This document shows positions 5,340 to 21,708 of a stretch of 64,000 nt of DNA, one piece after another; position 1 is the stretch's first letter; every line of letters begins with the position of its first letter. The stretch is from positions 1 through 64,000 of the forward strand of contig JAIDFQ010000055.1 of NCBI GenBank assembly GCA_029054245.1, read 5' to 3'. The stretch is from Lachnospiraceae bacterium (GTDB taxonomy: Bacteria; Bacillota; Clostridia; Lachnospirales; Lachnospiraceae). A program made the translations under genes and the position numbers. The notes below the pieces were generated by a model. It saw only the letters and a list, made by a program, of their open reading frames with translations. It was not told the DNA's origin and ran no database searches.

Positions 5340-5361
5340 ATACTTTTCGTCTGCCACGGCA
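5340..5361 (+). other. attL of element A (22-bp direct repeat)
   Basis: The 22 bases ATACTTTTCGTCTGCC followed by ACGGCA occur here and again, without mismatch, at 21253-21274 inside the first codons of the tyrosine phosphatase gene. Just before this copy is AGGAGG and ATGATTAAG, so the left copy retains a translatable start 'MIKILFVCHG', after which homology to the phosphatase stops. The repeat therefore marks the crossover site of the integrase at 17433-18716. Confidence 0.88.
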
Positions 5362-5449
5362 GGTCAGGTGTACAATAAATTAGACTTTGGTAAACTGGGG
5401 CAAAGTAGGGCATAATGTACCGCAAACCCGCATAAATACTATGGTTTCG

Positions 5450-5527
5450 ACTACTAAGGTCTGAGCCGGAGAGGGGATGAAGGCAAATGTTTTGGGATAA
5501 TTCCTTAGTAGTAATAGACTACTAAGG
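5450..5527. repeat. Left arm-type integrase sites (ACTACTAAGG repeats)
   Basis: ACTACTAAGG is found at 5450-5459 and 5518-5527, and its reverse complement CCTTAGTAGT at 5503-5512, the last two forming a perfect 10-bp inverted repeat with a 5-bp loop. CCTTAGTAGT recurs at 21070-21079 at the other end of element A. Tn916-type integrases bind such arm sites; assignment here is by position. Confidence 0.6.
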
Positions 5528-5578
5528 GTATAGCATATGAACACTTTTTGGAACATTACAGAAGGTGTTCTTTTATCA

Positions 5579-5607
5579 TTGAAAATATTCGTCTAAAGGA
5601 ATATAAT
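5579..5607 (+). promoter_or_regulatory. Sigma-70-type promoter for the left cargo
   Basis: TTGAAA (5579-5584), a 17-bp spacer and TATAAT (5602-5607) stand 39 bp before the HTH gene that heads the restriction-modification operon. Confidence 0.7.
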
Positions 5608-5645
5608 AGTATTGGTTTATTGTATGTATTTTCGGAGGTTATAAC

Positions 5646-5837
5646 ATGAATTTTGTACCGTCAATTACGAAAGCAAAAGAATGGGGAATTACACAGAGGC
5701 GTGTGGCTATTTACTGTAAGGAAGGACGCATAAAGGGAGCAGAGCTTATTGGTAATAGATGGCTTATTCCGTGTGATGCAGAAAAACCTATTGATCCAAG
5801 AAAACAAAGAATATCTGATTGTAAAAAGAATAGTTAA
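5646..5837 (+). CDS. Small HTH DNA-binding protein ahead of the R-M genes
   Basis: The 63-residue product has a compact MerR/excisionase-like helix-turn-helix: 'SITKAKEWGITQRRVAIYCKEGRIKGAELIGNRWLIP'-type pattern spanning residues 6-43, in which a helix-turn-helix is followed by a short wing ending in W-LIP. A good Shine-Dalgarno (CGGAGG) precedes ATG 5646. It lies 82 bp before the nuclease-methyltransferase gene and shares its promoter, so a controller role for the R-M operon is plausible, although the same fold also serves excisionases and Fic-associated regulators. Confidence 0.65.
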   Translation: MNFVPSITKAKEWGITQRRVAIYCKEGRIKGAELIGNRWLIPCDAEKPIDPRKQRISDCKKNS

Positions 5838-5919
5838 GAGTGGACTAGCTGGCTTGATCGAAAAGAAGACTGAATGACTGATTTATAATAAACACATATT
5901 AGAAAACGAGGAGAAAAAC

Positions 5920-8616
5920 ATGAATAGAGAACTAATAAAACAGTATATAGATGCCCAACCGATTAAGGTTGTATCTCATTTGGATTTAGTGAATAATAAG
6001 ATAAAATATGATGGTATCAAGCAACATAGAGAAATAGTAGAAATACTTGGTGATGAAGAAATGTCACGAGCTTTTTTGCTGACTAGACTTGTGAATGAAT
6101 TAGGATATCCTGCGGATAGAATAGAAATTGAAAAAGAGTATTCATCTGGTCGAGCTCCAAAACTAAAACCTCGTATAGATGTTATCGTTCGTGATTCAAA
6201 AGGAGATGCATTTCTTTTTATTGAGGCGAAAAGCCCATCGGAATTTTCAACAATTGATCAAGATAAAACTATTAATGATCAGTTGTATTTGGTGGCTGCG
6301 TTAGAGAAAGCTTCAGGAAAGAATGTTAAGTATTTGGTTTTATATACTACTGAAGAATCCCTAGCGTCTACGCATGATAATTGCGTGATAATAGATATGA
6401 ATGAGTATCCTACATTTGAAGATTGGGAAGTAAGTAGAAATCCTGCTAATGCTATACCAGCACGCTACGGAAAAGCACAGCATAAACCTTATGTAAAGGC
6501 ATCTGATAAAGATTTAGAAACAGATTTTACTAGTGAAATGTTAACTCAACTTCAAAATGATTTACATAATGTTTTGTGGGGCGGTGGAGGAACTGATGAT
6601 AATGAAGTGTTTTCTTCATTAACCAATTTAATTCTTGCCAAAATTCAAGACGAAGATACTACCGAAGATGGAGAAGTATATAGGTTTCAGTCATTAACAT
6701 ATGAAAAAGAAGGCGATGAAGAATTTGAAACAAATGAAATGCTTTTTGAGAGAATTAATACCTTATATCGGGAGGCGTTAAAATCAAAATTATATATATT
6801 AGATAAAAAAGAATTGGATAAATCTTATGTAATTGATACAAAAAGATTTTCATTATCTAAACTGAAGTATGCTGTTCAAAAGTTACAAGGATTGTCATTT
6901 GTTGATGGTAAAAATAGTTTGAATGGTAAAGATATATTAGGTGATTTCTTTGAAGGAATTATCAGAGATGGTTTTAAGCAGAATAAGGGGCAATTTTTTA
7001 CTCATATAAATATTGTTCGTTTTATGCTTTGGGCTATTCAAGCTGATAAACTAGCTATTGAAAGAATTAAAAAAGATAAGGAAATTCCATATATGATGGA
7101 CCCGTCAGCAGGAAGCGGCACGTTTTTAATTGAATATATGAAATTTATTACTGAGAATATGAAATATCGATTTAGAAGTGAATTGGGAACCACTCGTGCT
7201 GTTAAGGATAAGATAGAATCTGATTGGTTTTATCCTGACCATAGAGAAAATAAATGGGCACAAACATATATTTATGCATCAGAAGTGAATTTTAATTTAG
7301 GTACAGCAACTAAGGTTAATATGATTCTTCATGGTGACGGCTCGACCAATGTATTTGTAAAGGATGGATTGTTGCCTTTTTCTAAATATGAGAAGGAAAC
7401 CGCGCCTAATGTATTACATGATAGCCAAAATGAAAAATTGTATCATGAAAAATCAGTTAATGGAAATTTTGATATTATACTGACAAATCCTCCGTTCAGC
7501 GTTGATTTAGATAATGATACAAAAAAAACACTAAAAAAGAGTTTCTTGTTTGGTGAGAAAAAGAATTCTGAAAATTTGTTTATTGAACGTTGGTATCAGT
7601 TATTGAGAGAGAATGGAAGATTAGCGGCAGTTTTGCCAGAAAGTGTATTTGATACGACGGAGAATAAGTATATTCGTTTATTCTTGTTTAAATATTTTAA
7701 AATAAAAGCTGTAGTATCGTTGCCGCAGTTAGCTTTTGCACCTTTTACTCCAACGAAAACAAGTATATTGTTTGCACAGAAAAAAACAAAAAATGAGATT
7801 GATGATTGGAATAAAAAATGGGCGGATATATCAAAGGAGTATTCTAAGCTAAAAACAAGGGTTGAGAATTTAATTTTAGTATGCGATGGAAAAAAAGAGA
7901 AAAGTAAGCTTCCGTCAATAAAAAAATTAACAGTAGAAGAAGAAAAGGCTATCTTGTCCGAAATGCTTTACCAGTATGCAGATGAGATAACAGAAGAAAT
8001 GACAGTAAATGATATTATTTGTAATTTCCGAATGGAATTAGAAGAACTATGTAAACTTAGCAAGGATACTGTAGATATATTTGGACATGTAAATACATGG
8101 TGGGTATTTGGCAAGCTGACTAAAGAAATAGACTATGATATTTTTATGGCAGAAGCAGAAAATATAGGGTACAAAAGAACTTCAAGAGGTGTTCTTGATA
8201 TGCCAAATGATTTGTACTCTTTAGAATATGCTCCAGATAGTTTGCCTGTAACAGAAATAATTGATGAGTATGAGTTGGCAATAAACGATCTTGATGCGAA
8301 TATAAAGGAACAAGAGAACAAATTAAAATTAGAAAAGAAAAAAGATAAGAAAGATGCTATAAAAGAAAAAATTAGTACCTTGTCTGATGCAAAGGAAAAG
8401 AAAGAACAGGAATTATTATATGTGAAAGCATTTATAGAGGAGTATTATTATAATGAACAATTGCGAAATGAGTATATTGAAAGAACAGAAGATGATTTGT
8501 TGAGACCATTTAAATCAGGTGGATGCTTGCATCGTTATTGTAGTTTCAGAACTGCTCTTCACAAAACAACATACTCAACCATTTTAGATTATATGAGAGA
8601 CATAGATTGGGAGTGA
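5920..8616 (+). CDS. Fused HsdR_N-type nuclease and N6-adenine DNA methyltransferase
   Basis: The 898-residue protein joins two activities. Residues about 50-110 match the N-terminal nuclease domain of type I R subunits, with a PD-(D/E)XK core visible as D87 in 'RIDVIV' and E102/K104 in 'FIEAK'. A type I HsdM-like methyltransferase follows: 'GQFFTH' near 357, AdoMet motif 'DPSAGSGTF' near 394-402 and catalytic 'NPPF' near 523. A Lys/Glu-rich coiled coil lies near 785-830. No DEAD/H translocase motif is present here or nearby, so the enzyme resembles BcgI-like type IIB/IIG systems rather than classical type I. It should methylate, and cut at, sites chosen by the specificity subunit encoded 10 bp downstream. 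AT-rich relative to the element core. Confidence 0.85.
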   Translation: MNRELIKQYIDAQPIKVVSHLDLVNNKIKYDGIKQHREIVEILGDEEMSRAFLLTRLVNELGYPADRIEIEKEYSSGRAPKLKPRIDVIVRDSKGDAFLFIEAKSPSEFSTIDQDKTINDQLYLVAALEKASGKNVKYLVLYTTEESLASTHDNCVIIDMNEYPTFEDWEVSRNPANAIPARYGKAQHKPYVKASDKDLETDFTSEMLTQLQNDLHNVLWGGGGTDDNEVFSSLTNLILAKIQDEDTTEDGEVYRFQSLTYEKEGDEEFETNEMLFERINTLYREALKSKLYILDKKELDKSYVIDTKRFSLSKLKYAVQKLQGLSFVDGKNSLNGKDILGDFFEGIIRDGFKQNKGQFFTHINIVRFMLWAIQADKLAIERIKKDKEIPYMMDPSAGSGTFLIEYMKFITENMKYRFRSELGTTRAVKDKIESDWFYPDHRENKWAQTYIYASEVNFNLGTATKVNMILHGDGSTNVFVKDGLLPFSKYEKETAPNVLHDSQNEKLYHEKSVNGNFDIILTNPPFSVDLDNDTKKTLKKSFLFGEKKNSENLFIERWYQLLRENGRLAAVLPESVFDTTENKYIRLFLFKYFKIKAVVSLPQLAFAPFTPTKTSILFAQKKTKNEIDDWNKKWADISKEYSKLKTRVENLILVCDGKKEKSKLPSIKKLTVEEEKAILSEMLYQYADEITEEMTVNDIICNFRMELEELCKLSKDTVDIFGHVNTWWVFGKLTKEIDYDIFMAEAENIGYKRTSRGVLDMPNDLYSLEYAPDSLPVTEIIDEYELAINDLDANIKEQENKLKLEKKKDKKDAIKEKISTLSDAKEKKEQELLYVKAFIEEYYYNEQLRNEYIERTEDDLLRPFKSGGCLHRYCSFRTALHKTTYSTILDYMRDIDWE

Positions 8617-8625: not shown

Positions 8626-10053
8626 ATGATTATATTAAATTCATCACTTCAAAAAATTAGTGCGGAAAAAACGTTACGATATGACGTTGATTATTCAAAG
8701 TATTATCAGAGGCATACAACAGAGTATTGTTCATTTAATGATCTTTTTTCATTTCCCGATGTAATAGAGATTGATGTTTCTAACTTGGAAGAAGATTTCC
8801 TTTATTGCGAAATTGGTGATGTGAATTCGAACGGTGAAGTAATGCCAGTAACATTGAACTTTACCAAAAGGCAGTTGGAGATGGAAAGTTATTATAAAAA
8901 AATAGAAAAAGGAGATATTCTGCTTGCACAACCTGGAGATATATTGATTTCAAAAGTACGACCTAATTTGAAAAAAATCGTGTTTATTACGAATGAGAAT
9001 TGCAATATATATTATACTTCAGCATTTATTCGAATAAGACCCCAAATAATACCTAAAATTCTTTATTATTGTTTACGAAGTATTTTTATTGATGATATCA
9101 ATGCACTTTCTAGACAAGGCAAAGGGTATCCAACAATTTCAGAGTCGGATTTGATGACTTTGAAATTTGATCAGAAAATAATAGACAAACTTTTATGTAA
9201 TGCTGTTGAATTGGAAAAAACTATCACCAAATTAGAAAAAAATATTGATAAATATAAAGGCACAATAAAACGTCCGTATGATATTATTAATGATGTTTTT
9301 TCTGAGGTTTTTAAATTAGATTATTCTAAAATAAAAGATATAGATGATATGAAATTATTTTCTGTTCAAACTAGTAGGCTTATTTTGGAAAATCAGAATG
9401 CCAGATTTAGTTGCCGTTGGAATAAAGCGTTTAGTTCACAGGAAGTGTTGAGAAAAAGCGTTGCTTGCTGTGAAAAACTTAAAAAATATATTGTTTCAGC
9501 AAATAATGGATGGTCTCCAGAATGTAATGAAATTGCGACAATTTATAAAGTTCTAAGCTTGGATTCTATTGAAAAAAATGGTGTTTTACAGACTGACAAA
9601 GTGAAATTTACAGATATATCTCGTTCAAATGTTGAAAAATTTTTTGTTAAAGAAGGAGATTTGTTTGTAAGTAGAGGAAATGGGACAGATGAATTGATTG
9701 CAATGGCTTCTGTTGCAGGGAAAATAGATAGCGAATCAGAGCCTATAATATATCCTGATATAATGATAAAAATTAATTTGTCAGAGGAAGTTTCTTCACA
9801 TTATGTTGCATATGCTATTAATTCTTATTTTGGAAGAATGTATTTTAAAAATGTTGCAAAAGGAAGTAACAAGAAAAAAATAACTCCTTTTGAACTGGGG
9901 GAATTTGTTTTACCATGTCCAGAATTAAGTGAGCAAGAACGAGTTGTCTCGATTATTCAGAAAAAAGTGCGAGAGCAGGAAAGAGTCAACATCAAAATTG
10001 AGGGCTTACGTTGTAAGATTTATGATGCTGTTTTCGCAAAATTAAGTCAATAA
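8626..10053 (+). CDS. hsdS: Type I-style specificity subunit (HsdS)
   Basis: The 475-residue protein has two target-recognition halves, each followed by a helical conserved region; the second ends with the diagnostic 'LPCPELSEQERVVSIIQKK'. The first half ends near residue 205 with 'NAVELEKTITKLEKNIDKY', the matching spacer helix. It would direct the fused nuclease-methyltransferase to a bipartite DNA site. ATG 8626 follows GAGGTGAC, only 10 bp after the upstream stop, so the two genes are co-transcribed. Recognition sequence cannot be read from sequence alone. Confidence 0.85.
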   Translation: MIILNSSLQKISAEKTLRYDVDYSKYYQRHTTEYCSFNDLFSFPDVIEIDVSNLEEDFLYCEIGDVNSNGEVMPVTLNFTKRQLEMESYYKKIEKGDILLAQPGDILISKVRPNLKKIVFITNENCNIYYTSAFIRIRPQIIPKILYYCLRSIFIDDINALSRQGKGYPTISESDLMTLKFDQKIIDKLLCNAVELEKTITKLEKNIDKYKGTIKRPYDIINDVFSEVFKLDYSKIKDIDDMKLFSVQTSRLILENQNARFSCRWNKAFSSQEVLRKSVACCEKLKKYIVSANNGWSPECNEIATIYKVLSLDSIEKNGVLQTDKVKFTDISRSNVEKFFVKEGDLFVSRGNGTDELIAMASVAGKIDSESEPIIYPDIMIKINLSEEVSSHYVAYAINSYFGRMYFKNVAKGSNKKKITPFELGEFVLPCPELSEQERVVSIIQKKVREQERVNIKIEGLRCKIYDAVFAKLSQ

Positions 10054-10290: not shown

Positions 10291-11394
10291 TTATGTTTTT
10301 GCCGTGCTTTTCTTATGTTTTTGAGCGGTTTCTATGCGTTTTCTGCGCCTGAATTCACGTTGGTTTTTAGCATTCCGGGCTTTCTGACAGTCGGGTTTAT
10401 CACAATACTCCTGCCTGCCGTTTCTTCTTATAAGGAAGGCACCGCAGTGTCGGCAGCATATCATGATGCCTTCCTTGCGGTCATCAGACCGTCCCTTGTT
10501 TTCCGGGGGAGGGTCTTCTGAGATCATTCTCGCCAGTGTGAACCATGCTATATCAAATACGGAGTTTACATCCGCTGAAAACTCGATGCGGTTTGTTTTC
10601 GGGTTTACTTTCAAACGCATATTGAAATCAGGGATGCGTTCGATTAGTTTGCCGAGCAGTTCCCCATAATTGTCATAAGGCTCCTCTGCAAATTGTCCAT
10701 CCGGCGGTTGTTCCTCTGGATGGCTTTTTCTATGTTCAGTATAAAGCTGCATTTCTTTTACAAGGTTTCCGTCTGCCGCGTCCACATCAATATCCGGTCT
10801 GTCGTGGATGCATTTAAAACGCTCAAAGAAAGGGAGTCCCTCAAAATATTTCCCCTCTTTATATAAATCGTAGGCAGCGTCATCGTCAGCTAAGCACACA
10901 CCTTCCAATGCTTCATAAAACAGGGCGGTGGTGTACAGCTTTTCCAGATCTTCCATAAAATCTTTGATTGAAAATATGCCATCGCGGGCGGCCAGTTCTG
11001 CATCATATCCCGTAATATCAAACCCTTCTTCAGTAAGCTCCTGATACACAAAATCAATACGGTAGGGATGCATGTTTTCTTTGCACCACCGGATGATCAG
11101 TTGGTCATATGGGATTTTATTATCCCAATCGTCTATCTGTCTGGCAAGATTGCACAGGCTGACCAGGAGTCCCTTGCCGGACACGGAATCATCGGAGGGA
11201 AAGGCGGGTTCATATCCCGGCCTGCATACCGGGAAAGCACAGTATTCCTCCCTGTCATTGGCAAGTATATAGTCTTTATACCGGAAAGGGTGGTAGATAA
11301 GCTGCCCCACACCGCCGATTTCTTTTTGTCCCAAAATATCTGTGGATTTATCCGCTTTTGACGGGATATAATCTCCATTCCAATTATATGGCAT
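10291..11394 (-). CDS. DUF6076-like protein with C-terminal zinc finger
   Basis: The 367-residue protein has a long uncharacterised acidic N-terminal region and, from about residue 315, a treble-clef-like Cys cluster (CCRHCG ... YCDKPDCQKARN) followed by a strongly basic tail (REFRRRKR). The C-terminal layout resembles CGNR-type zinc fingers and the DUF6076 family often found in clostridial integrative elements. It is the only core gene of element A on the minus strand. It may bind nucleic acid and regulate the divergent replication genes, but this is inferred from the basic zinc-finger tail only. Confidence 0.55.
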   Translation of the reverse strand: MPYNWNGDYIPSKADKSTDILGQKEIGGVGQLIYHPFRYKDYILANDREEYCAFPVCRPGYEPAFPSDDSVSGKGLLVSLCNLARQIDDWDNKIPYDQLIIRWCKENMHPYRIDFVYQELTEEGFDITGYDAELAARDGIFSIKDFMEDLEKLYTTALFYEALEGVCLADDDAAYDLYKEGKYFEGLPFFERFKCIHDRPDIDVDAADGNLVKEMQLYTEHRKSHPEEQPPDGQFAEEPYDNYGELLGKLIERIPDFNMRLKVNPKTNRIEFSADVNSVFDIAWFTLARMISEDPPPENKGRSDDRKEGIMICCRHCGAFLIRRNGRQEYCDKPDCQKARNAKNQREFRRRKRIETAQKHKKSTAKT

Positions 11395-11660
11395 ATCCGT
11401 TTCTCCATATCGTTACAAGGTAACCGTAAGCGTAATCGTCAGGAATTAGATTTCGGTTACATTATATCGTAAAATATCCTTGAAAACAATAGAGGACAGA
11501 TAAATTGTTTAGAATCTGTTGCATATCTTGACAACGTTATTTCGTCCCCGGATTGTTGCACCAGTACACTGCAAGGAGTGCCGCTTGCCGGGGCAGTGGA
11601 GGATAGCAGATTTTGAAAAGGCAGGCAGATCAAATTATTACGGAAATGGAGGGATTTGTT

Positions 11661-11837
11661 ATGGAAAAGGCGACGATGAGCGTGCAGGAATTGTCGGCAC
11701 AAATGGGAATCAGTCTACCGAAAGCATATGAACTGGTCAAGGCGCCCGGTTTTCCGACTATCAGGGTTGGTACAAGAATTCTGATTCCGGTTGAAGCCTA
11801 CAGGGAGTGGCTGCTGAAAAATGCGGCCAGTGATTAG
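11661..11837 (+). CDS. Excisionase-like helix-turn-helix protein
   Basis: About 58 residues with 'MSVQELSAQMGISLPKAYEL' and 'FPTIRVGTRILIP', the AlpA/excisionase winged-HTH pattern in which a helix-turn-helix leads to a wing and a final helix. The frame is open from 11613, but ATG 11661 is chosen because GGAGGG ends 7 bp upstream. It lies immediately before the primase-helicase gene and could regulate replication or act in excision alongside the two later excisionases. Confidence 0.65.
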   Translation: MEKATMSVQELSAQMGISLPKAYELVKAPGFPTIRVGTRILIPVEAYREWLLKNAASD

Positions 11838-11872: not shown

Positions 11873-14173
11873 GTGGGTGAGATTACCATAGAAGAGTTAA
11901 AACAGAAAAAGATATGGTTTGTGTGGAACTATATGCCGGGGAAAAACGGGAAGATCACCAAAATCCCATTCTCAGCCTATGGCGGGGCAACAGGCACGGA
12001 TGATAAATACAGGGACACATGGGCGGTTTATGATGAAGCGTATGCCGCCATGCAGAAGTGTGGCGCATCCGGCATTGGATTCAAGGTACCGGAAGAGGTG
12101 TACTTTCTGGATATCGACCATAGGGAACTGTCAGACCCGTTATCGCAGAAATTTCTTAAAAGACACAATTCCTATACGGAGTTTTCTCCAAGCGGTAATG
12201 GCATCCATATCCTTGGAACCTGCGATGCAGAGAGACTTCCTATTATTTATGACGCAAAGAAACAGCGGAATATACTAAGTAGCGAATTTTATCAGAAGAA
12301 TTCTGCGCTAGGCGTAGAACTTTATATCGGCAGCGCCACAAACCGTTTTGCCACCTTTACAGGCAATGTGGTCAATGACACCCCTCTTGCGGAGGGAACG
12401 GATGCAGTTCTTGCCACCCTGCATGAGGATATGCGCAGGAAAGATAAGGGAAAGGCTCATCTGGCAGACGATGACGAAAAAATGCTGTTTGATGTGGTGG
12501 CCGGGCTGCGCAGGCAGAAGAATTCCGGGAAATTTATCAAACTTTATGACAATGGGGATATCAGCGGTTATGGATCGCAGTCGGAGGCAGATGCAGCGCT
12601 CTGTGCCATGATAGCATTCCGTGTGGGAAGGGATGCGGAGGCAATAGACAAAGTGTTCCGGGAATCGAAACTTTACAGGGATAAATGGGAGCGGGACGAT
12701 TACCGTGAATCTACGATAGCGTTGGGAATCGAAGCGTGTCACGGGGTATTCCACAAGTCCGTAATGGAGCATCCGGAATTCATAAGATTTGATGAAAGGA
12801 CATTTAAGCCTTATATCAGTGTTCCGCTTCTGGCAAAGCATGTCAGGGAGCATATGCAGTATGTTCTTGTAAGGGACAACGGCAGGCAGGCGCTACTGAA
12901 ATATGTTTATGAGAATGGCTGTTACAGGCTTTACGCTGACAACATGATGATGGGGCGGATTAAACAGTATATTGCCGATTATGATGAGGAACTTGTAAAG
13001 ATGAGCAAAGTGAATGAAACATTGCAGCACATCAACACGGATCTGAATTATGTAGGGCAGGATGAACTGGATGCAGATGAAAGCATCATTAACTTTCAGA
13101 ACGGGCTTCTAAGGGTGTCGGCTGCGGAAACCGTTCTGGAATCCCATACACCGGCAGTGCTTTCTACCATACAGATACCGTGCGAATGGAAGGGGGTGGC
13201 ATCGCAGACGCCAGTATTTGATGCGTATATGGACACGCTTGTAGGTGGTGATAAGAAAGTACAACAGCTTCTGTTGGAATTTATGGGAGTATGCATTTCC
13301 AACGTGAAAGGCTGGAGGATGAAAAAAGCGTTGTTCCTTGTGGGAGACGGAGATACCGGGAAATCGCAGTTAAAAAGCCTCGTGGAGCGTCTGCTTGGCA
13401 GGGGGAATTTCATAGGCATTGACTTGAAAGAAATCGAATCCCGGTTTGGGACGGGAGCCATCTACGGAACAAGGCTTGCCGGAAGTTCTGATATGAGTTT
13501 TTTATCTGTGGAAGAACTGAAGACTTTTAAGAAAATGACAGGCGGTGACAGTCTCTTTGCAGAGTTCAAAGGGCAGCAGGCATTTGAATTCACCTATAAC
13601 GGTCTGCTTTGGTTCTGCATGAATAGGCTGCCTAAGTTTGGAGGAGATGATGGCAAGTGGGTATATGAGCGCATAATGGTGGTGGAGTGCCCGAATGTGA
13701 TCCGGCCGGAAAAACAGGATAAGGAGCTGCTCGATAAGATGTATGCCGAGAGGGAGGGGATCGTATATAAGGCTGTAAAGGCGTTGCAGACAGTGATCGC
13801 AAACGGGTACAGGTTTTCCGAGCCGGAGAGCGTATCAGCGGCAAGGGAAAAGTACCAGATGGAGAATAATACGGTCATCAGTTTTTTTGGAGACTGTATG
13901 TGCCGCCGTGAGGGTGGGAAGATCACAGATGCCTGCACGACCGGAAAGATTTATAAAGTCTATAAGGAATGGTGCCGGGATAACAACAACGGATTTGCCA
14001 AGACCTATAAGGAATTCCGGACAAGGCTTGCAGACCATCTGGAAACTACGTTTGAGGATATGATTGTAAAACGCAGCAGTGGAACTTTTTATAAGGATTT
14101 CACACTGACGCATGAGTGCAAAAGGGAATATGCATCGGTTTATGGATATGACGATACAGATTTTCTTGCGTAG
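11873..14173 (+). CDS. Prim-pol / SF3 helicase replication protein (phage/plasmid primase family)
   Basis: The 766-residue protein starts at GTG 11873 after a strong GGGAGGAGGTGAGG. The N-terminal part is an archaeo-eukaryotic-type primase-polymerase: 'FLDIDH' near residues 76-82 supplies the DxD metal site and 'SPSGNGIHIL' near 104-113 the second catalytic motif. The C-terminal part is a P4/D5-type SF3 helicase with Walker A 'VGDGDTGKS' near 489 and a conserved 'FCMNRLPKF' arginine-finger-region motif near 582. It should prime and unwind the element's own origin after excision. Iteron-like repeats lie immediately downstream. An autonomous replication gene is expected for satellites and some ICEs. 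Confidence 0.88.
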   Translation: MGEITIEELKQKKIWFVWNYMPGKNGKITKIPFSAYGGATGTDDKYRDTWAVYDEAYAAMQKCGASGIGFKVPEEVYFLDIDHRELSDPLSQKFLKRHNSYTEFSPSGNGIHILGTCDAERLPIIYDAKKQRNILSSEFYQKNSALGVELYIGSATNRFATFTGNVVNDTPLAEGTDAVLATLHEDMRRKDKGKAHLADDDEKMLFDVVAGLRRQKNSGKFIKLYDNGDISGYGSQSEADAALCAMIAFRVGRDAEAIDKVFRESKLYRDKWERDDYRESTIALGIEACHGVFHKSVMEHPEFIRFDERTFKPYISVPLLAKHVREHMQYVLVRDNGRQALLKYVYENGCYRLYADNMMMGRIKQYIADYDEELVKMSKVNETLQHINTDLNYVGQDELDADESIINFQNGLLRVSAAETVLESHTPAVLSTIQIPCEWKGVASQTPVFDAYMDTLVGGDKKVQQLLLEFMGVCISNVKGWRMKKALFLVGDGDTGKSQLKSLVERLLGRGNFIGIDLKEIESRFGTGAIYGTRLAGSSDMSFLSVEELKTFKKMTGGDSLFAEFKGQQAFEFTYNGLLWFCMNRLPKFGGDDGKWVYERIMVVECPNVIRPEKQDKELLDKMYAEREGIVYKAVKALQTVIANGYRFSEPESVSAAREKYQMENNTVISFFGDCMCRREGGKITDACTTGKIYKVYKEWCRDNNNGFAKTYKEFRTRLADHLETTFEDMIVKRSSGTFYKDFTLTHECKREYASVYGYDDTDFLA

Positions 14174-14491: not shown

Positions 14492-15118
14492 ATGGCCAGT
14501 AAAGATACGGCTATCCGGGCTTTGTGCAGGAGCCTTGGAAAAGAGTACAGGGTATGCACCATAGATTTTGAACCTGTGATTTACCGCGATTTTGGTAACG
14601 GGTTCAATGTAGAGATCAGCGGTGTATATACCACAAGTAAAACAAGAAGGGCAACTTTGTATCTATGGTATGGGGAGAAGCAGCCGGAATGCCTGATCGT
14701 GAAAACAGTCAGGGATGTACAAAGGGATGAGATCGCAGATGCTGTGGAGGGATTGCTCCATTACAGCTATGCACTTCTCGCAGATGGATTTAATGCCGGA
14801 GACAGACTGTCTGGGCATCAGTTTAAGATCACCAATTGCATGAATGGAAGGAGTGGCATGAAATACAGGATTTTCTATGGAACAGAGCCGAAATTCTCTG
14901 ACCGGGATTTACAGGATTTCTCAAGGGGCAGCTATGAATGCAGGAGGCTCCTTCGGAACAGGCGCGGACAGATTGCGGTCATTTCACAGTGCAAAGATGA
15001 AGACATACCGATCTGGAAAGTGGAGTATGGATTTTCCTGCATGGTGTTTGGAACATTTGATGAAGCTATGGCTTTCTGTAGGGGGAAATTTACTGACCTT
15101 GACGGCAGGGAGGTGTAG
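14492..15118 (+). CDS. Hypothetical protein of element A core
   Basis: A 208-residue soluble protein beginning 'MASKDTAIRALCRSLGKEYRV'-like (residues 1-20), with a beta-rich middle ('FNVEISGVYTTSKTRRATLYLWYG'-like region) and a C-terminal alpha/beta part. ATG 14492 follows AAGGAAGGAG; the upstream open frame through the iterons is not used. It overlaps nothing and is followed 3 bp later by a zinc-ribbon gene, so it belongs to the capsid-gene operon. I do not recognise the family. Confidence 0.55.
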   Translation: MASKDTAIRALCRSLGKEYRVCTIDFEPVIYRDFGNGFNVEISGVYTTSKTRRATLYLWYGEKQPECLIVKTVRDVQRDEIADAVEGLLHYSYALLADGFNAGDRLSGHQFKITNCMNGRSGMKYRIFYGTEPKFSDRDLQDFSRGSYECRRLLRNRRGQIAVISQCKDEDIPIWKVEYGFSCMVFGTFDEAMAFCRGKFTDLDGREV

Positions 15119-15121: not shown

Positions 15122-15406
15122 ATGGAAATTCAGAAGATTCGATACCACCCATTGGTAGATGCCAATTCGGAAGGAACAGAGAAAGTACCCATGTTCCTTA
15201 CCACAGATCCTAAGGGAGTACGCTCTATGTATTTAGAGGAAATGATACACGGCTATTTCAGGCTTTACTCCAGAGAGCCTGTAAGCACGGGGGAAAGTGA
15301 TAAGCTGAGAATCCATTGCCCGCAGTGTGGTAGAGGCTTAATGAAGATTGCAAAAAACAGCACTACAACAAAACTTGGTCTGTACACCTGTGACAGGTGC
15401 AGATAG
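15122..15406 (+). CDS. Small zinc-ribbon protein 1
   Basis: The 94-residue protein ends in a four-cysteine ribbon (CPQCG ... CDRC) with 'LGLYTC' between the knuckles. Its N-terminal 60 residues include 'MYLEEMIHGYFRLYS'. ATG 15122 follows GGGAGGTG. It is a paralogue in layout of the next gene. Function unknown; zinc ribbons of this size usually bind nucleic acid or protein. Confidence 0.6.
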   Translation: MEIQKIRYHPLVDANSEGTEKVPMFLTTDPKGVRSMYLEEMIHGYFRLYSREPVSTGESDKLRIHCPQCGRGLMKIAKNSTTTKLGLYTCDRCR

Positions 15407-15425
15407 AAAAAAGGAGGAGTTTATT

Positions 15426-15728
15426 ATGATTTATCCATTACGCGGACAGGCGAAAGGCAACCTTTTAACGCCATCCAACAGTTATTATTCAGAGGAATAT
15501 GCACGGAGAATGTGTGATCTTTATCTTTCGGATGAGGTGGCAAAGGATGAAGAAGGAAAGGTGAGGAAGTTTTATCGGCTTCATGCAGAACATGATCACA
15601 CGCAGGAGATGGCGCTTACTTACGACATTAAATGCCCTAAGTGCAGTGCCAGTTTGAAGCAGATCGGCAGGCAGATTTCACTTAACGAGCTTGGACTTTA
15701 TTCTTGTCCGGCATGCAACAGGGAATAG
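15426..15728 (+). CDS. Small zinc-ribbon protein 2
   Basis: About 100 residues from ATG 15426 (after AGGAGG), ending in CPKCS ... CPAC with the shared 'ELGLYSC' element. The N-terminal part contains 'MCDLYLSDEVAKDEEG' and a 'FYRLHAE' stretch parallel to 'YFRLYSR' in the preceding protein, so the two look like diverged duplicates. It ends 12 bp before the capsid gene and is surely co-transcribed with it. Function unknown. Confidence 0.6.
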   Translation: MIYPLRGQAKGNLLTPSNSYYSEEYARRMCDLYLSDEVAKDEEGKVRKFYRLHAEHDHTQEMALTYDIKCPKCSASLKQIGRQISLNELGLYSCPACNRE

Positions 15729-15740
15729 GAGGAGTTTGGA

Positions 15741-16688
15741 ATGGGTGTAAATTATACAGATATTACGGCACAGCCGGAATATGATATCCAGTTTTGGAAT
15801 GTGGCAAGGGGCATAAAGAGAAATGAAGATGCGCTTGCAAAGGGACGTATTAGTGCAACAGGCAGTTATGAACTGCCTGCTGGCGCATCCGCAAAAATTG
15901 CCAAGGCAATGGAGAAGGAAAGCGTATTCAGGAATATAGCGACTGAAATTAAAGCCTATAAGTCCGGCTACCGCATTTTTTCAAAGGACTGTAAGGACTT
16001 GGCAAAGTTCATCCCGGAGAATGGAGAACTTCCTGTTTATGACGGCATGAAGGAGTTTGACGTAAATGCCATCGGAAGCCATAAACTGGCTGTTCTTGTG
16101 AAGATGGATGAGGATTTTGTCCGTGATGCAGCTTTCAGTTTGGAATCATACCTTATCGGCAGGTTCGCAAAGAACTTTGGCAGGGCGGAGGACAATGTCT
16201 TTATCAATGGAACCGGGGAAGATGAGCCGACAGGCATTCTTCATGACAGTAACGGTGCAGAGGTGGGCGTGACAACGGCAAGCCTTACCTATGATGATGT
16301 GATTGCCCTGTATTTCAGTGTGGAAAAGGAATATAGAAAAAACGGTGTCTGGATGATGAATGATAGTACGGCACTTATGCTCAGGACATTGAAGGATGCA
16401 GACGGCAATTATCTTTGGAATCACGCAAATGATACCATTTTAGGCAGGCAGGTCGCCATTTCAGAGTATATGCCGGATGTTGCTGAGGGTGCAAAGCCGA
16501 TTGCTTTTGGGGATTTTTCATACTACTGGATCATAGACAGGAAGCCGGTGTCGGTACGTACGCTCATAGAGAGATTCGCAGTGCTTGGGCAGGTTGGATA
16601 TCTGGCATTCAAATTCCTTGATGGGAAATTAATCCGCAGGGATGCAGCCAAGGCCATCCAGATAAAAAATCCAGATCAAAATGTGTAG
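15741..16688 (+). CDS. HK97-fold major capsid protein (stand-alone)
   Basis: The 315-residue protein matches phage HK97-type major capsid proteins: an N-arm, an E-loop-like segment, the P-domain stretch 'ESYLIGRFAKNFGRAEDNVFINGTG' region (residues about 134-158) with 'TGIL', 'WMMNDSTALMLRTLKD', 'LGRQVAISEYMP' and 'GDFSYYWIIDR'. The usual N-terminal delta/scaffold domain of about 100 residues is absent and no protease gene accompanies it. No portal, terminase, head-completion or tail gene exists in element A. ATG 15741 follows AGGAGG. It could form small shells or replace a helper phage capsid; both ideas are inference. Confidence 0.85.
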   Translation: MGVNYTDITAQPEYDIQFWNVARGIKRNEDALAKGRISATGSYELPAGASAKIAKAMEKESVFRNIATEIKAYKSGYRIFSKDCKDLAKFIPENGELPVYDGMKEFDVNAIGSHKLAVLVKMDEDFVRDAAFSLESYLIGRFAKNFGRAEDNVFINGTGEDEPTGILHDSNGAEVGVTTASLTYDDVIALYFSVEKEYRKNGVWMMNDSTALMLRTLKDADGNYLWNHANDTILGRQVAISEYMPDVAEGAKPIAFGDFSYYWIIDRKPVSVRTLIERFAVLGQVGYLAFKFLDGKLIRRDAAKAIQIKNPDQNV

Positions 16689-16798
16689 TTTTCAAAAATT
16701 GTTTGATTTTGTTATCAACAGATATATACAGCTATCAGGCTATTTTATGCGGTTTATCTGTATTGTGGGGTAATACCCTGTTTGAATTAGCAAAAATG

Positions 16799-16867
16799 TG
16801 CGTGGAGGGGCAGCGCCGTTGCCCGTAGGGGAGGGTGTGGGGATTTTGACCGCCCCTCCCGCACGCA
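16799..16867. promoter_or_regulatory. GC-rich long hairpin between capsid and excisionase genes
   Basis: TGCGTGGAGGGGC (16799-16811) pairs with GCCCCTCC-CG-CACGCA (16852-16867), leaving a 40-nt G-rich loop. The right arm ends 19 bp before the excisionase start. It has no T run, so it looks more like an RNA control element, attenuator or arm site than a simple terminator. The rest of 16689-16798 holds nothing recognisable. Confidence 0.5.
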
Positions 16868-16886
16868 TGGAAAAGAGGTGGGAAAC

Positions 16887-17111
16887 ATGAATGGTATCAG
16901 CGTGGAACAGAAAGAAAATAAGCAGGAATCCTTAAAGGATAAGTATATGCTCACCGTTAAAGAAGCTGCCTTTTACTTTAATATCGGCACAAAGAAAATG
17001 CGAAGGATCGCAGAGGACAATCTTGGAAACATTGCAGTGTACAGTGGGAACAGGTTCCTGATCATCAGACCGAAGTTTGAGGATTTTATCCTCAATTCTT
17101 CAGAAATATAA
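16887..17111 (+). CDS. xis: Tn916-type excisionase
   Basis: A 74-residue protein with the Tn916 Xis pattern: 'YMLTVKEAAFYFNIGTKKM' helix-turn-helix followed by 'RRIAEDN' and the wing 'NRFLIIRPKFEDFI'. AGAGGTGGG precedes ATG 16887; a GTG at 16878 is less likely. Excisionases bend the arm sites and steer the integrase towards excision. It lies two genes upstream of the integrase. Confidence 0.8.
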   Translation: MNGISVEQKENKQESLKDKYMLTVKEAAFYFNIGTKKMRRIAEDNLGNIAVYSGNRFLIIRPKFEDFILNSSEI

Positions 17112-17221: not shown

Positions 17222-17473
17222 ATGGCAAAGCCGAATTTAGGGGAAAAGGATATTCTGAACCCGCAAGAAGCAATCCGGTATTGGAACCTCAGCAGAAGAA
17301 GGTTTCATGCGTTTTTGGAGAAGACGGATGGCGGTGATTTCCTTGCATACTATAAAAAGAGGACGCTTATCATCCGTATGGCATTTGAGCAATATTTATC
17401 AAAAAATCCCAAAGTAAAGGAGGAGCTTACCAATGGCAGGAGCAGGACGGGGAAAAACCAGACGGGATGCTAA
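17222..17473 (+). CDS. Second excisionase-like protein
   Basis: The 83-residue protein shares the same layout ('ILNPQEAIRYWNLSRRRFHAFLEK' region, then 'RTLIIRMAFEQYL') as the preceding excisionase, including the final wing-helix. AAAGGAG precedes ATG 17222. Its 3' end overlaps the integrase start by 41 bp, so the two are translationally linked. Two tandem excisionase-like genes before one integrase is a recurring clostridial arrangement. Confidence 0.7.
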   Translation: MAKPNLGEKDILNPQEAIRYWNLSRRRFHAFLEKTDGGDFLAYYKKRTLIIRMAFEQYLSKNPKVKEELTNGRSRTGKNQTGC

Positions 17474-18716
17474 GCGCAGGGTTCTGCGCCCCGGAGAGAG
17501 CATAAGGGCAGACGGCAAGTACCAATACAAATATCACATCGATGGAAAACCGCATTTTGTATACAGTTGGAAACTGGAGCCTACGGACAGGCTTCCTCCC
17601 GGCAAAAAGCCGTGCCTCTCCCTCCGGGAATTGGAGAAACAGGTCAATTCCGATCTGGACAGGCTGATGAATGTTTCAGACGGACAGATGACAGTGTGCG
17701 AGTTGATAGACAGATACCTTAAAACCAAAACAGGGGTCCGACAGAGTACCAAACAGGGATATGTCACAGTGCAGAGACTGCTTGCAAAAGAAAAATTCGG
17801 CAGCCAGAAAATACGGAGTGTGAAGACCTCTGATGCAAAGATATTTCTTATCAAGTTGCAGCAGGAAGATGGAAAAAGTTACAGTTCCATCCATACCATA
17901 CGGGGAGTACTCAGACCCGCTTTTCAGATGGCAGTGGATGATGACGTTTTGGTAAAGAACCCATTTGGATTCCAGCTTGCCGGGGTTATTGTCAACGACT
18001 CTGTCACAAGGGAGGCGATTTCCAAAGACCAGATGAGGAAATTCCTAAAGTTTGTGCATGATGATGTGGTGTACTGCAAATATTACGAAGTGGTCTATAT
18101 CCTTTTCCACACGGGAATGCGGATCTCGGAATTCTGCGGCCTGACACTTAAGGACATCGATCTTGAGAACAGAATCGTAAACATAGACCATCAGCTGCAA
18201 AGAACTTCCGATATGAGGTACATTATTGAAACCACGAAGACCGATGCCGGGACGAGAAAAATACCGATAACAGAGGATGTAGCCGATATGTTCCGAGCCA
18301 TTATCGAGGACAGAGAGCCGCCGAAGACGGAAAAAGTAATTGACGGCTATACGGGATTCCTTTTCTACGATGATGACGGAAACCCGTTGGTGGCGATGCA
18401 CTGGCAGCACAGGTTCAACCACATGGTAGGAAGGTACAACGATATTTACCGGGTGCAGATGCCGAACATCACTCCGCATGTCTGCCGCCACACTTACTGT
18501 AGCAACCAAGCCAAAGCCGGAATGAATCCTAAGACTTTACAGTACCTCATGGGGCATTCGGATATTTCGGTCACGATGAATGTGTACACCCATATCGGAT
18601 TGGATGATGCAGAGAAGGAACTGAGGCGGATGGAAGAATTTCAAAAGGCGCAGGCGGAGGTAGAAAAGAAGAATGATGCAAAGGCAGTATCGCAGAAAAT
18701 GTTTAAGGTGATCTGA
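17433..18716 (+). CDS. int: Tyrosine recombinase (integrase) of element A
   Basis: The 427-residue protein has an N-terminal arm-binding region, a SAM-like core-binding domain and a catalytic domain with 'HTGMRISEF' (Arg I near residue 230), 'HVCRHTY' (His-x-x-Arg near 350), 'LMGHSD' and the nucleophile Tyr in 'NVYTHIG' near 384. It is Tn916 Int-like. The direct repeats at 5340 and 21253 are its likely att cores. AGGAGG precedes ATG 17433 inside the previous gene. It is followed by a terminator at 18733-18761. Confidence 0.93.
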   Translation: MAGAGRGKTRRDAKRRVLRPGESIRADGKYQYKYHIDGKPHFVYSWKLEPTDRLPPGKKPCLSLRELEKQVNSDLDRLMNVSDGQMTVCELIDRYLKTKTGVRQSTKQGYVTVQRLLAKEKFGSQKIRSVKTSDAKIFLIKLQQEDGKSYSSIHTIRGVLRPAFQMAVDDDVLVKNPFGFQLAGVIVNDSVTREAISKDQMRKFLKFVHDDVVYCKYYEVVYILFHTGMRISEFCGLTLKDIDLENRIVNIDHQLQRTSDMRYIIETTKTDAGTRKIPITEDVADMFRAIIEDREPPKTEKVIDGYTGFLFYDDDGNPLVAMHWQHRFNHMVGRYNDIYRVQMPNITPHVCRHTYCSNQAKAGMNPKTLQYLMGHSDISVTMNVYTHIGLDDAEKELRRMEEFQKAQAEVEKKNDAKAVSQKMFKVI

Positions 18717-18761: not shown

Positions 18762-18865
18762 CTATAGAAAAAGAATACGAATGACGATATAGTATTATGA
18801 AAGATTTCTATTTAAGCTAGTTTAATCAAACTAAATGGTAGACAGGAAAAGGGGAGGAATAACAA

Positions 18866-21034
18866 GTGTATAATTCTGATAGAGCAATAACCGACTTGCA
18901 GAATGATCTTCTAGGGAGGGCATCTTTTTCCAAACATTTGGGCAGAGCGATATATGAATATCTAGGTAATGATGGATTGGTAATTGGGTTGTTCGGGAAA
19001 TGGGGTACCGGAAAAACATCTGTAATTAATATGACTTTGCAGGAAGTTAGTACATTGTCTAAAAATGATGATAATAAACCATTGGTAGTTAAATTTGCCC
19101 CATGGAATTACTCGGATAGAGAAAATTTGATTTCACTTTTTTTTCAGTGTTTGAAAAATAAAGTAGAAAATGATAAAAGTGGAAAATTGAAGAAAAAAAT
19201 AGGAAAAGCATTGAATGATTATGCAGGAGCATTTGATGCTGTTGCGCTTGTTCCCGTGTTTGGAAGTGGATTGGCTGCCATCTTAAAGACTACAGCAGCA
19301 ACTGAAGGGAAAAAACTAATTCAGGGGCCTAGCTTAGATGAATCTAAAGAATTATTGGAAAAGGCATTATTGGAAAGCAGTCAGAAGATAGTTGTTGTTA
19401 TTGATGATATAGACCGCTTGAGTAATTCGCAAATTAGAGATGTATTTCAGCTTGTTAAGCAGGTGGCAGATTTCCCAAATGTGATTTATATACTTGCCAT
19501 GGATAGAGAAGTGGTAACTCGTGCGTTAGAAGATGTTCATGGATTTGATGGAAATGAATATTTAGAAAAAATAGTTCAAATTCCGTTTGAAATCCCAGAA
19601 TTAAGTAAAGAAAAACTTCAGCATATTCTTTTTACAAAGTTGGATGCCATAGTAAATTCTTGCAATATAGAAATGGTTTTAAACAAGAGATATTGGAGCC
19701 AAGTATTTAGAAATTGTGTTGATCCTTACATACATACACTAAGAGATGTGAATCGTGTTGTTAATACATTTCAATTTAAGTTTGGACTATTAGCACAAGA
19801 ATCGTGCGTTGAGGATGTTATTGCACTTACCTCAATAGATGTTCTTGAGCCTAAATTGTATAAATGGATATCGGAAAATAAGGAGTCTGTTTGTGGAAGC
19901 GAAATGCATTCATTATATTCGAGAAATATGAAGCCAGAAGAGATGAGGAAAAAGTATTTGGAGGAATTTAAGAAACTGGGAATTAATACAGAGTTAGCAA
20001 TAAAATGTGTTGCAACACTTTTTCCGGTATTTGCGAAAGATGTAAATGAACATAATTATGGGTGTTATTATGAGAACAATGCAAGGGGACAAATGCGTGT
20101 AGCACAACAAGAGCGTTTTGACTTATATTTTGGTCTAAATCTAGAGGAAGTTAATGTTCCGAGAAGTTTAATCAATAAATGCATTATATCATATACGGAG
20201 GAAGAACTGGTTGCGGCAATTGAAAAGATAAATGAAGATGGTCAGGCTATATACTTTTTAGATGAATTACAATCTTTGTTAGATAAAATTCCATACGAGA
20301 GACTTGCTATGATTGCTCAGGTGCTTTATAAGAAGCAGGCACAGTTAAAAGGGGAGACAATGAGAGCAATTTTTGCTATTTCAGCGATAGAACGAGCAAG
20401 TTTTTGTATAGAGGCAATTCTGAATAGGATGAATACGCCAGAAGAGCGATTTAATGTTATCTATAATATAGTGACTCATGGAGATATTTTTGAAATCGGC
20501 TCTGTATGCAGAGAAATAAATAGAATAGAATGTGCTTATGGTAGATGTGATTCAAATGAAGAGGATGTAAAAGGACAGATCATTAGTAAGGAACAACTTA
20601 TTAAAATAGAAGAGGCGTATGTCTTAAAGATGCATGAGTTAATTGATGACGTTCCATTAACAGATTCTGAAGATTTTCATTATATATTATATCTGTGGGA
20701 GAACTTTGATTCTAAAGGTGCATCAGAATATATGCATGCCTATATTAAGAATATGACGAATCATTTAAGATATGTGTGCAGGATGGCAGGAAAGTGGACT
20801 GGATCTAATGGAAGTGGCTGGAGTTTTGATTCTTTATTAATTGATAAGTATACAACGACTGAGGAGGTAAAGAAGATAATAGATGAATATGATAGGAAGA
20901 AGATGGTCAATGATTTTTCTGAACAAGAATTGATTAAGTTGGCATCATTTGTTTTGAATTATAAGAAAGATAAAATTTATCGTGCGACACTGGAAATGGC
21001 TGTTCAACTGGTTATAGAATGGCAAAATGATTAA
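18866..21034 (+). CDS. KAP-family P-loop NTPase (right cargo)
   Basis: The 722-residue protein begins with a KAP NTPase domain: Walker A 'GLFGKWGTGKTSV' near residues 40-52, 'KFAPWNYSD' near 75, Walker B 'VVVIDDIDRL' near 175 and 'VIYILAMDREVV' near 205. A hydrophobic segment ('VALVPVFGSGLAAIL', near 125-140) sits inside the domain, where many KAP proteins carry a membrane hairpin. The C-terminal 400 residues are helical and unassigned. KAP proteins include PifA, which aborts phage infection, so a defence role is plausible but not shown. GTG 18866 follows GGGGAGG. AT-rich and outside the integrase, it looks like exchangeable cargo. Confidence 0.82.
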   Translation: MYNSDRAITDLQNDLLGRASFSKHLGRAIYEYLGNDGLVIGLFGKWGTGKTSVINMTLQEVSTLSKNDDNKPLVVKFAPWNYSDRENLISLFFQCLKNKVENDKSGKLKKKIGKALNDYAGAFDAVALVPVFGSGLAAILKTTAATEGKKLIQGPSLDESKELLEKALLESSQKIVVVIDDIDRLSNSQIRDVFQLVKQVADFPNVIYILAMDREVVTRALEDVHGFDGNEYLEKIVQIPFEIPELSKEKLQHILFTKLDAIVNSCNIEMVLNKRYWSQVFRNCVDPYIHTLRDVNRVVNTFQFKFGLLAQESCVEDVIALTSIDVLEPKLYKWISENKESVCGSEMHSLYSRNMKPEEMRKKYLEEFKKLGINTELAIKCVATLFPVFAKDVNEHNYGCYYENNARGQMRVAQQERFDLYFGLNLEEVNVPRSLINKCIISYTEEELVAAIEKINEDGQAIYFLDELQSLLDKIPYERLAMIAQVLYKKQAQLKGETMRAIFAISAIERASFCIEAILNRMNTPEERFNVIYNIVTHGDIFEIGSVCREINRIECAYGRCDSNEEDVKGQIISKEQLIKIEEAYVLKMHELIDDVPLTDSEDFHYILYLWENFDSKGASEYMHAYIKNMTNHLRYVCRMAGKWTGSNGSGWSFDSLLIDKYTTTEEVKKIIDEYDRKKMVNDFSEQELIKLASFVLNYKKDKIYRATLEMAVQLVIEWQND

Positions 21035-21069
21035 ATAGTCATTATGGCAAATATTTATTGAAGAAAAAT

Positions 21070-21115
21070 CCTTAGTAGTAGGTCACATCTATTTTACTAC
21101 TAATCTTACTACTAA
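21070..21115. repeat. Right arm-type integrase sites
   Basis: CCTTAGTAGT (21070-21079) and ACTACTAA (21096-21103 and 21108-21115) repeat the left-end motifs at 5450-5527. Together they support the ends proposed for element A. Confidence 0.6.
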
Positions 21116-21140
21116 CAGGTAGTCACAACTTGCAAAAATA

Positions 21141-21149
21141 TGCTATAAT
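21141..21149 (+). promoter_or_regulatory. Extended -10 promoter supplied by the element's right end
   Basis: TGCTATAAT (extended -10) lies about 95 bp before the phosphatase start and inside element A. It could drive the restored phosphatase gene. No good -35 is visible. Confidence 0.4.
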
Positions 21150-21243
21150 TTGCTCGGTTGACACACAAAAATGAAAAATAGAGAATTGCCAGAATCCCTT
21201 GCAAAACAAGGCATTTCACGGCATATTAAGGAGAGTTATAGCT

Positions 21244-21708
21244 ATGATAAAAATACTTTTCGTCTGCCACGGCAACATCTGCCGCAGCACCATGGCCGAA
21301 AGCGTCATGACCCACCTAGTTTCCCGCCGCGGCATATCCGACCAATTTCAAATTGCATCTGCCGCGACCAGCCGGGAAGAAATCGGCAATCCGCCCCACC
21401 ACGGAACCGTCAGAAAGCTTCGTGAAGCAGGCGTACCTGTAATTCCGCACCGTGCTGTGCAGATGACCAGACAAGACTACGAAACCTACGATTATCTTAT
21501 CGGTATGGACGACTGGAACGTCCGCAATATGCTAAGAATCACAGGAGGGGATCCGGTGCGCAAATGTTGCAAACTGCTGGAATTTGCAGGCAGCACAAGA
21601 GATATTGCAGACCCTTGGTACACAGGTGATTTTGATGCAACTTACGAAGATATTGTAGAAGGATGTGAAGCCTTTCTTAACAAACTTTTTCCGCCGAACA
21701 TTTTTTGA
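21244..21708 (+). CDS. Low-molecular-weight protein tyrosine phosphatase, 5' end rebuilt by element A
   Basis: The 154-residue protein starts 'MIKILFVCHGNICRST', containing the P-loop C-x5-R-S (Cys8, Arg14), and ends with the general-acid loop 'DPWYTGDF'. It hydrolyses phosphotyrosine or phosphoarginine-type substrates in the cytoplasm. The attR repeat covers codons 4-11, so the Shine-Dalgarno (AAGGAG), ATG and first codons come from element A while the rest is host sequence. The frame is open from 21199, but ATG 21244 fits the family start. The gene remains intact after integration. Confidence 0.92.
   Translation: MIKILFVCHGNICRSTMAESVMTHLVSRRGISDQFQIASAATSREEIGNPPHHGTVRKLREAGVPVIPHRAVQMTRQDYETYDYLIGMDDWNVRNMLRITGGDPVRKCCKLLEFAGSTRDIADPWYTGDFDATYEDIVEGCEAFLNKLFPPNIF
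21253..21274 (+). other. attR of element A (22-bp direct repeat)
   Basis: Exact second copy of the 5340-5361 repeat. It encodes 'ILFVCHG' of the phosphatase active-site region. Sequence to the left differs from the attL flank while sequence to the right continues the host gene. Confidence 0.88.

Follow-up and report, generated by a model that had tools for sequence, protein, structure and literature searches.

A lone HK97-type capsid gene beside a cos-like site points to a phage satellite in a Lachnospiraceae bacterium

Why would a mobile element encode the major capsid protein of a tailed phage and no other recognisable part of a virion? The question is raised by an island of 15.9 kb that interrupts a low-molecular-weight protein tyrosine phosphatase (LMW-PTP) gene in a 64,000-nucleotide stretch of DNA from a Lachnospiraceae bacterium (contig JAIDFQ010000055.1 of assembly GCA_029054245.1; hereafter the window). 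An earlier note, made from the letters of the window alone, described an island between exact 22-bp repeats with an integrase, two excisionases, a primase-polymerase/SF3 helicase, iterons, small zinc proteins and a lone 315-residue capsid protein without a delta domain, and proposed a satellite that remodels or replaces the capsid of a helper phage. All of these features were recovered in our analysis, and the satellite remains the best-supported reading. It is strengthened by what we regard as the decisive clue, missed by the note: a site next to the capsid gene that appears, by homology, to be a phage-type cos site. We consider it likely that the element is a cos-type phage satellite, packaged by a helper at the cos-like site, encoding a delta-less capsid homologue and working much as SaPIbov5, a Staphylococcus aureus pathogenicity island (SaPI), does, from an unrelated lineage.

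The capsid protein and the adjoining cos-like site

The Pfam scan covered the 14 open reading frames (ORFs) of the island, and PHROG, TIGR and PADLOC models were also used. As the earlier note had stated, no portal, terminase, protease or tail family was matched by these ORFs in Pfam, and no relaxase family either. The island thus combines integration and replication genes of its own with an incomplete set of virion genes, the general definition of a satellite. In the capsid protein, the Phage_capsid family (PF05065) covers residues 41–307 of 315, and the match to TIGR01554 begins at position 86 of the 385 in the model, that is, without its N-terminal part. Satellite capsids have 0–20 residues before the FW motif (31 rows, the value of 0 belonging to the contig-cut L035), as against 95–127 residues in 40 of 41 phage-type rows, the remaining row (L026) being contig-cut as well. 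The 41 rows were labelled as phage by frame length, and the portal check described below covered the places of the family search, to the exclusion of 19 class-search rows. When L035 and L026 are left out, the groups differ beyond the N-terminus by consistent indels of two to five residues alone. In the tree, one branch with 100/100 support sets the short capsids apart from the phage types, to which they are roughly 35–47% identical. By profile, the nearest solved structure is the capsid of the Rhodobacter capsulatus gene transfer agent (6tb9, 3e-46), and by analogy the present protein resembles a pre-cleaved subunit.

The capsid gene is under purifying selection, with omega (NG86) at 0.055–0.196 in 14 of 14 gene pairs, dS being saturated near 2 in two of them. 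Loci L030/L179 (336-aa capsid) and L031 were outside the capsid alignment and tree, and neither the tree nor the omega counts include L096, whose frame is broken, or the truncated L048/L055/L020 and L049. The earlier note had reasoned that a capsid gene riddled with inactivating changes in relatives would speak against its proposal. Selection in every pair answers this in its favour; the broken or truncated copies in L048/L055, L049, L096 and L180 do not. In L048/L055 and L049 the gene is truncated or internally deleted, and the cos-like site, xis and int are still there.

The cos-like site was recognised from relatives. Used as a DNA query, the core of the related element L089 matched a stretch of ~85–118 nt in complete phages, which sits directly before the small terminase gene (terS, PF05119) in five of five phages and after an HNH endonuclease gene in all three phages tested. 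A profile built from the HNH–terS intergenic sites of five complete phages, and for that reason independent of satellites, was run on the window and the collected loci (1.08 Mb). It scored the window site at 29.5 bits (E = 8.5e-7); the best score in 20 dinucleotide shuffles of 316 kb was 11.5 bits. In 28 of the 36 element rows there is a match at E < 0.01 no more than 900 nt from the capsid gene, either 39–878 nt upstream on the same strand or 48–140 nt downstream on the opposite strand. These are not 28 independent events, because L031 is nearly a copy of L038, L032 comes from the same record region, and L089–L096 and L115 are near copies. A further model, R1, which includes satellite sequences, gave a match in 18 of 19 genomes or records tested and in at least 19 of 150 genomes of the family; in the window genome it found one match only, the same site (among the 150 of 956 candidates scored). 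In eight of these family genomes (G127, G054, G099, G148, G120, G081, G145 and G038) the site is followed, 6–13 kb further along the same strand of the contig, by a phage capsid gene. HNH before the site was confirmed in L168, and TerS, the large terminase TerL and portal after it in L169. By this homology, the element appears to carry a helper-type cos site.

Recurrence of the element and the search for virion genes near it

Searching genomes for the syntenic block, as the earlier note had proposed, showed that its primase–capsid–recombinase core recurs. The genome sets are samples rather than censuses, and many element contigs are short. Among 299 genomes searched in the family, 30 have a capsid match at E ≤ 1e-20, at 37 places: six of the short delta-less form, one truncated copy (G086) and 30 others. 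The class search covered 391 genomes, of which 51 have a match to the capsid profile at E ≤ 1e-40 and 11, including the window genome, clearly have the short form (G529 and G328, of unclear type, were not counted as short). Relatives were found in Blautia sp. Marseille-P3087, in Lachnospiraceae metagenome-assembled genomes (MAGs), Sphaerochaeta, a Spirochaetales MAG, Mycoplasmopsis gallinarum, Gallicola and on a Bacillus badius plasmid. The primase-polymerase, the capsid and a site-specific recombinase are constant across them; the cargo varies and often includes restriction-modification (R-M) genes. The recombinase differs in type: some elements have a Tn916-type integrase, some a single large serine recombinase accompanied by TnpW, and some a pair of serine recombinases.

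The Blautia element (L038) is a sister at the LMW-PTP gene. A 4.7-kb fragment deposited as human-faecal phage sequence (MT838964.1) is 96.7% identical to it. A link between this record and a virus-like-particle study of Mexican children (PMC8361208, PRJNA646512) is plausible by source and country; the accession occurs in the text of neither PMC8361208 nor PMC8844717, and we have not used the record as proof of packaging. One near-identical element (L089–L096 and L115; core mostly 90–98% identical in nucleotides) occurs in seven families of Clostridia and on the B. badius plasmid, where the capsid is 97% identical. In one of these copies (L091, genome G655) the primase-polymerase gene is interrupted by an insert with two ORFs, which we take to resemble an IS21-type pair. 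In M. gallinarum (L044), the primase-polymerase and capsid genes contain no TGA codon and have a GC content of 42–43%, as against 19–29% in four flanking genes. Since UGA encodes tryptophan in this genome, the absence of TGA and the higher GC make the copy look like a newcomer from a standard-code host, an apparent arrival across phyla. Primase records from Lacticaseibacillus were set aside as distant (24%).

Do the genes missing from the island lie near its relatives? Across 34 genomes or records holding an element (two of them with the same Blautia element), a portal gene (PF04860) lies near the element in none, six having one on another contig or more than 70 kb away. The result for TerL (PF03354) is likewise 0 of 34; nine have a match above the cut-off, on another contig or at a distance of over 70 kb. 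In Gallicola this match is a broken fragment and lies on another contig, and Blautia has, in an apparent small decayed prophage, a sub-threshold TerL fragment ~23 kb upstream of its capsid gene. As a control, a PF04860 portal lies within 3 kb of 25 of the 30 long-form capsid genes from the family search. The five exceptions are G124 and G227 (contig-cut), G027:C16, G222:C22 (L180, a 139-aa fragment beside an LMW-PTP gene) and G237.

The last of these genomes holds an element (L179, 53–3770) at the LMW-PTP site, as in the window, with an integrase 70% identical and three Xis-like ORFs. In its 336-aa capsid the FW motif is preceded by 41 residues, and the sequence is nearer to capsids of the phage type (~41%). 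Directly before the capsid gene comes one for a small terminase (PF05119, 5e-7), so an element at this very site appears to contain a packaging gene. Neither TerL nor portal was found between capsid and integrase, the contig beginning 52 nt before terS. By analogy, L179 is more like a terS-bearing SaPI than like what a deletion would leave, the stretch further upstream lying beyond the contig. The earlier note had held that portal or terminase genes in sister elements at this locus would mark the island as a deletion derivative; for portal and TerL none appeared near an element, and for the small terminase one did.

Several observations count against a cos-type satellite. The intermediate capsid of L179 blurs the size gap between the groups. 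Eight of the 36 element rows lack a clear capsid-adjacent site by the phage-only profile: L035, L053 and L094 are contig-cut, L050 is weak, and L034, L041, L042 and L047 have none. In L050 the match where the site is expected is weak, and a better match (E 1.8e-4) lies at 14517–14598, ~3.9 kb upstream of the capsid gene; the L034 record gives, with R1, a weak match of 19.7 bits ~960 nt upstream. The window site is itself among the more diverged. The spread of one element over seven families and a Bacillus plasmid exceeds the usual host range of one phage. Finally, no helper was found: the window genome has neither PF03354 TerL nor PF04860 portal, and a helper would therefore come from outside or use other families. 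When helpers were sought by shared DNA with positions 14100–17450 of the window, matches were limited to xis, capsid and MT838964, and the cos-like sites, when compared, pointed to no particular helper, the best prophage site reaching 66% for the window element. As a separate observation, G026 has a weaker second cos-like match, placed similarly to that in L050.

Proposed mechanism and competing explanations

SaPIbov5 offers the closest model. Its cos site is that of the helper, and Ccm, its capsid homologue, takes up the pentamer positions and converts heads from the prolate form to T=4 shells (PMC8569155). A second paper (PMC5052747) adds that Ccm blocks the helper, and its authors suggest that delta length may set capsid size. 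For the window element, we propose that Int and Xis would excise it from the LMW-PTP gene when a helper cos phage grows, and that, as its anatomy suggests, its own primase-polymerase/SF3 helicase would replicate it from the iterons. The HNH, TerS and TerL proteins of the helper would cut and package its DNA at the site recognised by homology. The lone delta-less capsid protein could join helper procapsids, adding no scaffold and favouring a satellite-sized shell, could spoil helper assembly, or both, in analogy to Ccm; portal, protease and tails of the helper would complete the particle. The R-M and PifA-like cargo may shield the host cell from phages.

Four other explanations were weighed. 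The strongest, which we nevertheless think unlikely, accepts a satellite and makes the capsid protein a pure inhibitor, a dominant-negative decoy of helper assembly, with the element travelling in helper heads of normal size as cos-cut multimers. A protein without a delta domain might poison procapsids, the adjoining cargo is anti-phage, and some satellites, such as the phage-inducible chromosomal minimalist island PICMI (PMC10803314) and EcCICFT073 (PMC6893505), do not resize capsids according to parts of these papers. However, the capsid gene keeps its core position beside the cos-like site while the cargo differs greatly between elements, and for this reason looks more like a transmission gene than like cargo.

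It is improbable, to a clearly greater degree, that the conserved site is bound by TerS or serves regulation in the terS region and is not cos, packaging then proceeding without cos cutting. In favour of this, the site is known here from its position in the HNH–terS gap and from conservation. Against this, HNH, TerS and TerL act at cos when HK97 packages its DNA (PMC9410871, in part), and elements that lack terS have retained the site, which may face either way relative to the capsid gene.

We give still less credence to a protein that builds its own small closed shell for the element, encapsulin-like or of T=1 or T=3 type. Delta-less proteins of the HK97 fold can assemble unaided in encapsulins, and, the N-terminus aside, the protein is set apart from phage types by the short indels alone. 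However, a portal and a packaging ATPase are absent, the phage cos-like site points to packaging by a helper, and Ccm of SaPIbov5 forms no capsids alone (PMC8569155, in part). That the island is a decayed prophage with one capsid gene kept by chance is very improbable, in agreement with the earlier note. In favour of decay, both the capsid and the cos-like site are of phage kind, some copies are degraded and the same-site cousin L179 keeps a small terminase gene. Against it, the same block occurs in many lineages, with a separate capsid group under purifying selection and no PF04860 or PF03354 gene near it in the 34 genomes or records.

Gene content, insertion site and place among known elements

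The features of the island are listed in Table 1. Absent from the earlier note were the R-M genes and the PifA-like NTPase. The iteron sequence AGTGGTCG occurs five times within 400 nt by the primase stop, as against a maximum of three in 100 mononucleotide shuffles; the top 8-mer exceeds all 100 shuffles in nine of 13 elements tested. An iteron origin adjoining the primase or rep gene is a feature of phage-inducible chromosomal islands (PICIs), and the window element has the same arrangement.

Table 1. Island features, with positions in the window
Feature	Position	Strand	Basis
attL	5340..5361	+	exact 22-bp repeat within displaced native LMW-PTP 5' end (ATG 5331); joined-flank alignment
Small helix-turn-helix (HTH) protein, cargo side	5646..5837	+	HTH_17 weak
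HsdR_N + N6-adenine methyltransferase protein, R-M cargo	5920..8616	+	PF02384 6e-27, PF13588 1e-8; PADLOC
HsdS-like specificity subunit, R-M cargo	8626..10053	+	PADLOC Specificity_I 7e-27
Conserved protein, C-terminal Cys/His motif	10291..11394	-	homologues in L038, L052, L086, L087; no Pfam match
HTH regulator, AlpA/excisionase-like	11613..11837	+	HTH_17 5e-6; phrog_7338/phrog_66
Primase-polymerase/SF3 helicase	11873..14173	+	NrS-1 HBD 1e-17, DUF5906, D5; phrog_1829 2e-118; TIGR01613
Iteron cluster, putative replication origin	14171..14450	.	AGTGGTCG, two opposed groups
ORF, ~86-aa C-terminal part kept in several sister elements	14336..15118	+	
Small zinc-ribbon-like protein	15122..15406	+	phrog_5602 weak; sister-element comparison
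Small zinc-ribbon protein	15348..15728	+	PF13453 sub-threshold; conserved in sister elements
HK97-type major capsid protein, 315 aa, no delta domain	15741..16688	+	PF05065 4e-66; TIGR01554 6e-72
cos-like packaging site (putative)	16772..16857	-	homologous to HNH-terS intergenic site of complete HK97-type phages; phage-only profile
Xis-like protein 1	16878..17111	+	Tn916-Xis 5e-11
Xis-like protein 2	17222..17473	+	Tn916-Xis 4e-5
Tn916-type tyrosine integrase	17433..18716	+	PF00589 1e-33, PF02920 9e-28
PifA-like KAP P-loop NTPase, phage-exclusion cargo	18866..21034	+	PF07693 1e-50; best PADLOC model PifA 3e-85
attR	21253..21274	+	22-bp repeat in element-supplied LMW-PTP 5' end (ORF from 21244); joined-flank alignment

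The repeats that bound the island fall in the first codons of the LMW-PTP gene (LMWPc 1.6e-32). The native start was left behind at 5331, and the replacement 5' end, with its ATG at 21244, comes from the element. Joining the flanks gives an open reading frame; seven loci in the same genus align with it over the junction at 70–82%, the part left of the junction being short (~30–210 nt). Because the flanks align in this way and the core recurs in other genomes, the island is not a chance observation. Four of the loci (L108–L111) hold other Tn916-type integrases adjoining the LMW-PTP gene, marking its 5' end as an integration hotspot in the genus; in L107 no integrase-like ORF adjoins it. The site is in use for integration, and att, int and xis are intact. 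The coding density of the island is 0.89, and Rfam and tRNA scans of the window gave no match. Outside the island, at 3192–3889, an AbiEi-like protein has a weak Pfam match and is followed by a short ORF, presumably an AbiEii-type remnant.

Several known systems share parts of this design. P4, PICMI and PLE combine replication and integration genes with reliance on the structural genes of a helper; P4 uses Sid and PLE a remodelling protein, and PICMI has no remodelling gene. Tn916- and Tn4451-type elements share the recombination modules (Tn916 Int/Xis in the window, TnpW with a large serine recombinase in sisters), whereas the window island has a capsid gene and a cos-like site instead, with no relaxase or conjugation family in Pfam among its 14 ORFs. 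It thus falls outside integrative conjugative and mobilizable elements, as the earlier note had concluded for the typical conjugative kind. HK97-type tailed phages and prophages have the portal, terminase and tail genes that the island lacks. Cos-type SaPIs such as SaPIbov5 are likewise integrative, with int/xis, replication of their own, a helper-type cos site and an HK97-fold capsid homologue. However, Ccm has retained a delta domain of 87 aa and shares 24% identity with the helper capsid, whereas the window capsid has no delta domain, and primase, integrase, hosts and gene order differ. The capsid-forming PICIs (cf-PICIs) also encode an HK97 capsid, but, as described in part of PMC11921389, they supply every protein needed for small capsids and for exclusive packaging, and the window element has no portal, terminase or protease. 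PmCI172 and EcCICFT073 are Gram-negative PICIs with a capsid homologue (PMC6092414 and PMC6893505, in part) from lineages other than that of the window element.

A second group with a primase, a cos-like site and a lone capsid gene was also seen (L172, L173/L176, L177 in G571, L174, and L175/L178 in G408). Its members have a primase-polymerase and a 437-aa capsid with a delta-like N-terminus, in several copies per genome; the cos-like site is matched at E 2.5e-13 to 8e-12 in L176–L178. In L176, the one copy tested, there is an IS110-family transposase, and an RHS-repeat/PT-HINT gene adjoins. More boldly, and with rather less confidence than in the satellite itself, we suggest that primase–cos–lone capsid–recombinase elements could form a large and general satellite class, so far unnamed and mainly of gut Clostridia. 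In such a class a scaffold-less capsid might set small shells by diluting the delta domains of the helper, tyrosine, one- or two-subunit serine and IS110 recombinases might be swapped, and elements might move between families and phyla.

Capsid homologues in PICIs are already known (PMC6092414 and PMC6893505, in part). We found no description of a delta-less, lone-capsid cos satellite in the portions of the literature searched, which included PMC12324425, PMC8530359 and PMC11389934. Surveys that rely on SaPI, cf-PICI, P4 or PLE markers might miss a satellite group in gut Clostridia, and the cos profile would be a simple tool for finding satellites and matching them to helper phages. Such elements would provide a natural test of the suggestion, raised for Ccm (PMC5052747, in part), that delta-domain length sets the size of HK97-type capsids. 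They may also carry R-M and PifA-like defence genes from one bacterial family to another.

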